From: Nematopogon swammerdamellus
Lineage: Eukaryota; Arthropoda; Insecta; Lepidoptera; Adelidae
DNA length: 64,000 nucleotides
Assembly: GCA_946902875.1 (NCBI GenBank)
Contig: OX336349.1
Location: forward strand, 20,731,891-20,795,890
Reading direction: 5' to 3'
The position numbers and the translations under genes are program-made. The notes beneath the pieces were generated by a model. That model was not told where the DNA came from, did no database searches, and was given only the letters and a program-made list of their open reading frames with translations. Positions 8,601 through 11,600 of the stretch are shown here, piece after piece. Within the stretch, counting starts at the first letter, position 1. Each line of letters opens with the position of its first letter.

Positions 8601-11600
8601 CATGGACATTCTGTGATGCACGGGGATTGCGAATGCCATGCCGATCTGACAGGACCCTTTTCACGCCCCTTTTGAAAAACCCCAGGCTGTACTTGTCGTC
8701 CGGTCCGCGTGTACCAATGAGTTTTTTTACGAAAAATTTACGTGCATTCCTGCATCTGCTGCTTCACCGTTCGGAAACGGTGTAAAACTGTAGGTCCCTT
8801 CCCTTGCCACTTACTAGGTGGTAGGCTCAAATTATAGCCGACTGGGTTGGTACCACCGTACTGGATGTAAGATGGCCGCATAGCAACCTCGGTTGTGTTC
8901 TCCTCTAGTCCAGTATAGCCAGCAATCCAGGGAAGTCTCCGGTATGGCACCTACCTTCTCGGAGGTGAAATTGGCTGGTCAATTTCACTGGACCCTCCGA
9001 CTCAACTAGCCATACCGGATTACATAAAAGAAAGTCTCGTCGCATTTTATACCTTTTTATTACGTGTCCTTATTTGCAGATGTTTTTCTCCACCGACCAC
9101 TTACTCGTATATCTTTAGTAAACACTGTCTTATTCTCCAAGTTTGTGCTTAGAAATAATCACACGATATCTACTTCTTCCAGAATGCTCTATACATGACT
9201 GGTGGAGCTGTTGGGTTCTACAGCGGCGACATCAGAACACTGGCCGACGATCTGAACGCCCTGAAGCCAACCATGATGCCTGCGGTGCCGCGACTTCTCA
9301 ACAGACTCTATGATAAAGCGCAGGCGGAGATTTCCAACTCGGCACTCAAGAAACTACTCTTCAGTATGGCGCTGTCTGCTAAGGAGTCGGAAATTAAGAA
9401 GTATGACACATGTTCAACTTTAATAATCCTTTCTCTTGAATTGTTTGGCTAATTGGTACTGTGCGGGGCCGGTACTTAATAGGAATAGCCCCACTGAATT
9501 TCTCCCCGTGCATGTCGTAAAGGGCGACTAAGGGATAAGGACAAGATGCCATGCATAAGGGCGACAGGCTAGCCACCTCTCACCTTGGCGCAGTATTTCC
9601 ACCTAGTCATGCAGCAGGTGGGCCTTCATGCCTTACTTGCTGCCTGATATAGGTTATCTCAGGTCAGGACAGTGGCACGTGGACGTGGAGACCCTTTGCC
9701 TGTTTTTTGAGAAACAGACGTTACGAAAGATTGCCATAGCTGTGCTCTCCTCAAGTCCAGTATAGCCACCAATCCAAAGAGAAGACTCCAGTATGGCACG
9801 TTCTCGGGTATGATATTGACTGGTGGCATGTGCTCGGGGTGGGTATAGATACTGGCAGGTGGCGGAGGGTGGAGGGGAGGAGGGGGGGGGGGGGAGAGAG
9901 CTTGGTGTATCGATTTATTAAGCCCCCCCCCTGAGGAGGGGAGCCGGGGGGGGGGGGGGGGGGGGGTTCATGTTTTTCGTTATTTGCCTTCCCCAACACA
10001 AGTCGATAGCTTGAAAAAAATATTAAAACGTATAAAAAAACTCATTAGCTAATTACGATTGCCACTTCTCCGGCTTATAGGCTTATAAAACACTCTAGGG
10101 AATTACTAACAGGTTTAGTTTTTCCGAAAAGTAGCTATGTCTGATGATCAGTGATCAGTAACCTGTTCAAATTTTCAAAAAAAAATTCTCGAAAAGTATT
10201 GATCTCCTCGGGCTAATTCTTTCACTAATATTCTTCTAACATCCTAAACTACAGAATATAACTCCAGCAATTAGCTATCAAACCTGCCTTTAACTAAACC
10301 TCACCCATCATGTGCTCTGGTCCCTTTGACTCAGCCACTCATACCCGACATCCTTCAGTCTTTCCAAAGTTTTCGATGCAGATATTATTATCTTAACGGC
10401 GTGTTTTGGTATGCGCAGAGGCATCATCCGCAGCGACTCGATATGGGACAAGCTGGTGTTCCGCAAGGTGCGCGATGGCATGGGCGGTCGCCTGCGCATC
10501 ATCGTCGTCGGATCCGCCCCGCTTGCTGGAAACGTCCTGACTTTCGCGCGCTGCGCCCTCGGCTGCTTGGTGAGTCTGTTATGTGGTATGCTCAGAGGCA
10601 TCATCCGCAGCGACTCGATATTGGACAAGCTGGTGTTCCGCAAGGTGCGCGATGGCATGGGCGGTCGGCTGCGCATCATCGTCGTCGGGTCCGCCCCGCT
10701 TGCTGGAAACGTCCTGACTTTCGCGCGCTGCGCCCTCGGCTGCTTGGTGAGTCTGTTATGTGGTATGCTCAGAGGCATCATCCGCAGCGACTCGATATTG
10801 GACAAGCTGGTGTTCCGCAAGGTGCGCGATGGCATGGGCGGTCGCCTGCGCATCATCGTCGTCGGGTCCGCCCCGCTTGCTGGAAACGTCCTGACTTTCG
10901 CGCGCTGCGCCCTCGGCTGCTTGGTGAGTCTGTTATGTGGTATGCTCAGAGGCATCATCCGCAGCGACTCGATATGGGACAAGCTGGTGTTCCGCAAGGT
11001 GCGCGATGGCATGGGCGGTCGGCTGCGCATCATCGTCGTCGGATCCGCCCCGCTTGCTGGAAACGTCCTGACTTTCGCGCGCTGCGCCCTCGGCTGCTTG
11101 GTGAGTCTGTTATGTGGTATGCTCAGAGGCATCATCCGCAGCGACTCGATATGGGACAAGCTGGTGTTCCGCAAGGTGCGCGATGGCATGGGCGGTCGGC
11201 TGCGCATCATCGTCGTCGGATCCGCCCCGCTTGCTGGAAACGTCCTGACTTTCGCGCGCTGCGCCCTCGGCTGCTTGGTGAGCCTGTTTGCTTTTCCTTT
11301 AGCGTCGCGCTGTCTTTGACTGGTGCGACTCCAGTGGCAGTGAAGGCTTCACCCCCGGCTCTCGGCTTCGGTCGGAGGTTCCTTCGGGACGGGTGTTGGC
11401 TCGGATCGGCTGTGGAAAGGCTTCAGCCTGTGTTTCCCATGGGATTATTTCGGAAGAACGGTACAGCTATGGGGCCCCGATCTGGCATACATGATCACTG
11501 TACTCGCAAGAGTGCAGGGATAGACGTCTGGATTTTAAAGCCGGAAGGCTGGTTTTTTTTTTTTATGGATCCTGACACGGTTGGCTACATCACCTACAAC

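Follow-up and report, generated by a model that had tools for sequence, protein, structure and literature searches.

The window analysed here, a stretch of 64,000 nucleotides of Nematopogon swammerdamellus contig OX336349.1, holds a gene in which one internal exon occurs five times in succession, and this raises the question whether the copies form a set of alternative exons or are carried along by a gene that makes one ordinary enzyme. The host gene was modelled as a chain of 12 coding exons with GT/AG sites, located at 2534-19575 and yielding one open product of 632 residues, whose stop codon ends at 19575. As the homologues listed are mostly longer, this chain probably lacks some 5' coding sequence. 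Homologue names and full-length alignment point to the gene encoding a long-chain acyl-CoA synthetase (ACSL): among the matches listed, which are the best 120 of 7972, the lepidopteran homologues share from 79% (Papilio xuthus) to 86% identity over 100% of the query, the closest being those of Tuta absoluta (86%), Amyelois transitella (86%), Chilo suppressalis (85%) and Spodoptera frugiperda (85%). Solved structures were matched best by carboxylic acid reductases; among the best 60 of 167 such matches no entry was named as an animal ACSL1-6 enzyme, and the only insect long-chain fatty-acyl-CoA synthetase was CG6178 (7kyd).

As described in the original prediction, five tandem copies of the 151-nt exon 7 occupy positions 10419-11277 at a strict period of 177 bp, and the AG before and the GTGAG after the exon are intact in 5/5 copies. 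The coordinates are in agreement with two repeat searches, as Tandem Repeats Finder reported 10407-11288 with a period of 177, 5.0 copies, 98% matches and a score of 1708, and a separate search returned four spacings between copies of exactly 177 each. The copies are adjacent, homologous and equally oriented within one gene, hence they constitute a tandem exon duplication, and the array is far beyond chance. Exon 7 enters in phase 2, exits in phase 0 and encodes GIIRSDSIWDKLVFRKVRDGMGGRLRIIVVGSAPLAGNVLTFARCALGCL. All copies are 98-100% identical to copy 1, with only 3 of the 151 exon columns being variable (10445, 10491 and 10512 in copy-1 coordinates), whereby copies 1 to 5 carry the combinations G-C-A, T-G-G, T-C-G, G-G-A and G-G-A. 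The first of these sites exchanges Trp for Leu in copies 2 and 3 and the other two are synonymous; one non-synonymous and two synonymous differences are too few for a test of selection. The remaining differences between copies locate to the outermost flanks of the array. Here, the repeated unit extends beyond the exon by approximately 12 nt on its 5' side and 11 nt on its 3' side, and about three bases at the junction correspond to neither flank. Inner flanks differ from outer ones at the junction, at the base four positions upstream of the exon and at donor position +6, the latter rendering the inner donors GTGAGT and the outer donor of copy 5 GTGAGC. The inner version is the one which we take to fit the usual consensus better.

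Table 1. Features of the exon-7 array and of its surroundings within the ACSL gene (window coordinates).
Feature	Position	Strand	Basis
ACSL exon 4, full copy	6449..6648	+	gene model
Exon 4, partial copy without the initial 23 nt or the native acceptor; 97% identity	6711..6887	+	exon search
Exon 4, partial copy covering the final 99 nt, with a gap of 2 nt; 98% identity	6986..7082	+	exon search
ACSL exon 6, upstream partner of the array	9183..9400	+	gene model
TTAAC outside the repeated unit, predicted branch-point-like site for the acceptor of copy 1	10393..10397	+	simple yUnAy matrix
Exon 7 copy 1, W-type, predicted to be mainly used	10419..10569	+	intact AG/GTGAGT; TTAAC 23 nt upstream
CTGAC within copy 1, 56 nt upstream of the acceptor of copy 2; recurs in copies 2-4	10537..10541	+	simple yUnAy matrix
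Spacer 1, 26 nt, copy-1 donor to copy-2 acceptor; stop-free in frame	10570..10595	+	sequence
Exon 7 copy 2, L replacing the W of 120/120 listed homologues	10596..10746	+	copy alignment, homologue listing
Spacer 2, 26 nt, identical to the other three spacers	10747..10772	+	sequence
Exon 7 copy 3, L replacing the W of 120/120 listed homologues	10773..10923	+	copy alignment, homologue listing
Spacer 3, 26 nt, identical to the other three spacers	10924..10949	+	sequence
Exon 7 copy 4, W-type; exon same as copy 5	10950..11100	+	copy alignment
Spacer 4, 26 nt, identical to the other three spacers	11101..11126	+	sequence
Exon 7 copy 5, W-type; outer donor GTGAGC	11127..11277	+	copy alignment
ACSL exon 8, downstream partner of the array	13686..13796	+	gene model

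It had been reasoned from the sequence that a gap of 26 nt is too short for normal splicing and that the use of two copies would break the frame, giving the array the logic of mutually exclusive exons enforced by distance and frame. Both premises hold, as the spacers are shorter than the 40-50 nt given for the 'ultra-short' intron class of Drosophila in PMC5762160, and the phases of the exon (2 in, 0 out) do not permit separate copies to be joined productively. Splice paths through the array were enumerated, which resulted in 88 forms at a minimum intron length of 20 nt and in 31 forms at 40 or 60 nt. At every minimum (20, 40 and 60 nt) 15 forms were productive, all of them consisting of a single segment, namely 5 single-copy forms and 10 read-through forms, the latter beginning at the acceptor of one copy, ending at the donor of a later one and thus including two to five copies. 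Multi-segment forms failed without exception (73/73 at the 20 nt minimum; 16/16 at 40 or 60 nt), whereby the six forms joining two single non-neighbouring copies encounter a stop at codon 492 of the chain. The four-copy joined form fails too, since, by reading of the frames, its third copy would be read in a stop-containing frame, and skipping exon 7 altogether leads to a stop at codon 354. In the combinations 1+3, 1+4, 1+5, 2+4, 2+5, 3+5 and 1+3+5 the intervening introns measure at least 203 nt; distance therefore stops neighbours only, and it is the frame that does the excluding, even when distance is ignored. The frame, for its part, leaves read-through open because 177 bp correspond to 59 codons and the spacer, which reads VSLLCGMLR with the last residue shared with the exon, contains no in-frame stop, so that the 859-nt array is one open frame. 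Selection for this open frame was considered and found to be unsupported: pieces of 26 nt taken from the flanking introns were equally open at the spacer position in 2019 of 3400 cases, and random spacers of 10-60 nt were in frame and open in ~17% of 20000 draws, hence no selection is needed for the array to be open.

The acceptors were compared by scoring branch points with a simple and crude yUnAy matrix within 18-45 nt upstream of the acceptor. The best score was 5.56 for copy 1 and 1.03 for each of copies 2-5, where the best-scoring site is the GTGAG of the preceding copy's donor and the TTAAC of copy 1 was not found within this range. This results from the repeated unit beginning ~12 nt before the exon, as a consequence of which copies 2-5 are devoid of the sequence lying further upstream. 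Scores of 1.3-5.92 were obtained for the gene model's 12 acceptors, that of copy 1 among them, with the exon 12 acceptor reaching 1.3 only, therefore a low score does not exclude use; across the window, 9.7% of 3242 AGs score as low as the inner acceptors. With the range widened to 60 nt, each inner acceptor gains the CTGAC of the preceding copy (5.66), which is as good as the site of copy 1, and the AG of the donor GTGAG sits between this CTGAC and the inner acceptor. Counting from 15 nt, the inner acceptors gain GTTAT (2.35); fly ultra-short introns were described with branch motifs at a mean of -14 (PMC5762160). The array is embedded in long introns, with 1018 nt upstream and, downstream, 2408 nt when counted from copy 5 or 3116 nt when counted from copy 1. 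The same source gives recognition across the exon as a general rule. As a 151-nt exon between long introns would by this rule favour cross-exon recognition, copy 1 is predicted to be the copy used most, together with its own donor.

The residue that distinguishes the copies is conserved in the family, as the exon-7 W is present in 120/120 listed homologues and invariant in an alignment of 40 sequences drawn from those 120. The AlphaFold model predicted for the homologue from Tuta absoluta has a moderate mean pLDDT of 70.4, is accompanied by 40 aligned sequences of the 120 listed and was read for secondary structure only; in it, the W lies in a short helix, and the rest of exon 7 corresponds to additional helix, a strand and another helix. 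Copies 2 and 3, placing L at this position, are therefore doubtful as working versions, and their L suits copies that do not need to work. No such mark attaches to copies 4 and 5; both are W-type and fully plausible as alternatives. As the W/L exchange is the one amino-acid change, choosing among the copies would give little diversity. Exon-7 motifs were present once in 156/156 homologues, a single-copy state that was judged from predicted proteins alone, in which unused exon copies would be hidden. In the predicted protein of Papilio xuthus an insertion (LTIVFLAMSYFQDM...) was observed between exon-7 and exon-8 sequence, which may stem from an intron that the gene model failed to remove.

Exon 4 of the same gene has been copied as well. 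Both partial copies are 5'-truncated, lack the native acceptor and are each followed by a GTGAGTGG donor, and the one at 6711-6887 also possesses the downstream flank of the full copy. Frame-preserving AGs were identified in the stretches scanned, one for the second copy and two for the third, whose use would cost part of the exon, and the exon-4 copies look like debris. Within the window no tandem copy of any other of the 12 exons was found, exon 9 giving a weak 36-nt match at 14465. Tandem duplication thus struck the ACSL gene twice, and the debris-like outcome for exon 4 favours, without proving it, that the additional exon-7 copies are passengers too. Further repeats were observed in the window: a minisatellite with 44/67-bp units (GCCTACGTACGACGCAAGATCTA...) at 19618-21057, which starts 43 nt past the ACSL stop codon and possibly belongs to the 3' UTR; 67-bp two-copy tandem repeats at 1040-1174 and 1840-1971, which look like mutual reverse complements; and 108/109-bp satellite arrays at 24341-26184, 26441-27336, 51177-51574 and 51599-52342, which form two pairs, the members of each apparently being one unit in opposite orientations. 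A tRNA scan of the window with the bacterial setting returned none.

Compared to known systems, the array is an unusually tidy, little-diverged case of tandem exon duplication, a phenomenon reported for ~10% of animal genes by a 2002 study (cited in PMC9013439). It shares with this class the head-to-tail arrangement of an exon with part of its flanking intron, the same phase and intact splice sites, but differs in that five copies at least 98% identical to copy 1 leave almost no protein diversification and in that its 26-nt spacers are below the intron sizes reported for flies and man in the literature compared. Mutually exclusive exons are characterized by similar length, compatible splice sites and frame, and homology, according to PMC3228551, and all of these are found here (151 nt each, AG/GTGAG, same phase, 98-100% identity). 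In PMC5740500 they are further characterized by exactly one copy per mRNA, with the junction reads of each copy bridging the others. That combined inclusion be non-productive is the case for 73/73 multi-segment forms, while 10 read-through forms with two to five copies are productive; copies encoding alternative versions, which is usual for such clusters though not strictly required, are represented by the W/L exchange only. The arithmetic itself has precedents in both kinds, distance and frame (PMC5740500 and PMC6071210), as a donor to branch-point distance of less than 50 nt was assigned to 57 human clusters (9%; PMC5740500), distance was described to work for pairs only, and the frame rule to break down with more than three exons, whose summed lengths can be divisible by three (PMC6071210). 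In contrast to those cases, the array has five copies instead of a pair, the frame carries the burden, read-through is open and the predicted products are near-identical.

Structures by which single copies could be selected were also searched for. In Dscam-like clusters an intronic docking site is complementary to selectors near the copies, and no such arrangement was detected at a sensitivity of 14 nt: none of 10 inverted-repeat pairs (at least 14 nt) in 9401-13685 has an arm in the array, a check that covers this interval and pairing of at least that strength. Complementary intronic arms, which probably derive from a dispersed repeat, lie on both sides of the array ~2.4 kb apart, at 9456-9539 and 11943-12027 (87% over 54 nt, 93% over 30 nt). 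Pairing between them could bridge the array as a whole and would single out no one copy. The human ACSL1/ACSL6 gate-domain exon pair (PMC1543647) resembles the locus in enzyme family and in having an alternative exon near the active site. However, its gate motif D-x4-(Y/F)-LPLAH-x2-E is encoded here by exon 5 (8224-8424, DVMISFLPLAHMLE) and not by exon 7, and the human exons differ in sequence and are found in transcripts, whereas the copies described here are near-identical and were recognized in genomic DNA only. Among titles and abstract starts of the literature no such array in an insect ACSL gene was encountered, which does not prove its absence from print. A search on identical exon arrays gave a sole match, on dystrophin, and one on tandem exons in Lepidoptera gave five, PMC6071210 and PMC5740500 among them.

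Considering this, the explanation we favour, and to which we assign an even chance, is that the gene likely makes an ordinary enzyme, with one of the five tandem copies being spliced, most likely copy 1 with its own donor, and copies 2-5 being passengers. Neighbouring copies would exclude each other as U1 on one donor would cover the U2 site of the next acceptor; joined non-neighbours would shift the frame, resulting in an early stop and degradation; and read-through exons, although in frame, would place repeats of 59 residues within the adenylation-domain core, and forms of this kind would be minor or non-functional. That the choice among the five copies is unregulated, any one of them being spliced and the product staying the same save W or L, is unlikely, though it deserves serious consideration: all five acceptors and donors are intact, the inner donors are GTGAGT, 5/5 single-copy forms are productive and the in-exon CTGAC could serve the inner acceptors, against which stand the inner acceptors' want of a branch-point-like site at 18-45 nt and the L that copies 2 and 3 put in place of an otherwise conserved W. 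A true mutually exclusive cluster, with spacing and frame keeping exclusivity and a functional choice among copies, appears improbable. Equal length, phase, splice sites and homology, the failure of all joined segments and a donor to branch-point distance of a recognised human class (PMC5740500) are consistent with it, but the copies share one peptide except for W/L, no inverted-repeat pair reaches the array and the 10 read-through forms provide a loophole. Of the logic read from the sequence at the outset, what persists is that joined segments are never productive; its distance part is confined to neighbours, its frame part leaves read-through open, an isoform repertoire is not evident, and copies 2-5 are without the branch-point-like site of copy 1, for which the site 56 nt upstream could substitute. 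Functional mutually exclusive splicing has little in its favour beyond an arithmetic that is largely common to tandem 151-nt exon copies. Retention of the spacers, by which the enzyme would become a protein of variable length with two to five repeats spaced by 59 residues, is hardly to be expected: the period is a multiple of three, the spacer is stop-free and 10 forms are open, yet such openness is frequent among intron pieces and random spacers, the repeat would by the model probably duplicate a strand and a helix of the domain, the exon-7 motifs occur once per homologue, and with a two-copy query no protein among the best 120 of 317 matches aligned to more than 52% of the query.

The number of copies was weighed along with their origin. 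Near-identical 177-bp repeats are difficult for assembly, and long poly-G tracts, a possible sequencing trouble spot, lie in intron 6 at ~9880-9966, ~450 nt upstream of the array; both would fit an assembler that over-counted or merged haplotypes, with fewer copies in the genome. We consider such inflation rather unlikely. The five copies display four three-site combinations, where a single-copy diploid exon could give two, base errors aside, and the inner junctions carry bases absent from both outer flanks, so that at least two true copies probably exist; likewise, four variants imply, base errors aside, at least two true copies per haplotype. The variants thereby argue against a single-copy artefact, though not for five copies in particular. 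The four identical junctions suggest one original junction that was multiplied later, meaning that a single duplication of the unit, its break points lying ~11-12 nt from the exon ends, may have been followed by amplification to five through unequal exchange or conversion, processes among the copies that are also suggested by the middle variable site being shuffled against the linked outer two. The best reading of the array is a recent, little-diverged tandem amplification, and the fallback of the original prediction, a recent expansion that is simply tolerated, fits the data better than exclusive exons do.

In the literature, tandem duplication counts among the sources of mutually exclusive exons (PMC9013439 and PMC6071210), and the array, with three variable exon sites, may show the first stage of such an origin. 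Under the favoured reading the additional copies would be cheap, provided that splicing takes one copy and every joined form is lost, and if copy 1 alone is ever used, the array would be a tolerated repeat in a metabolic gene. A bolder version, which we regard as a long shot, is a self-enforcing five-member exclusive cluster that has no regulator, in which the spacers block neighbours and the 151-nt length together with the stops in shifted frames kills all other combinations. If true, rules said to serve two or at most three exons would police five copies, and the copies could diverge into true isoforms, with W versus L being a first step. The array bears on the order of events in the origin of such exons, in which exclusivity may come first, as a cost-free result of spacing and frame, and divergence may follow.
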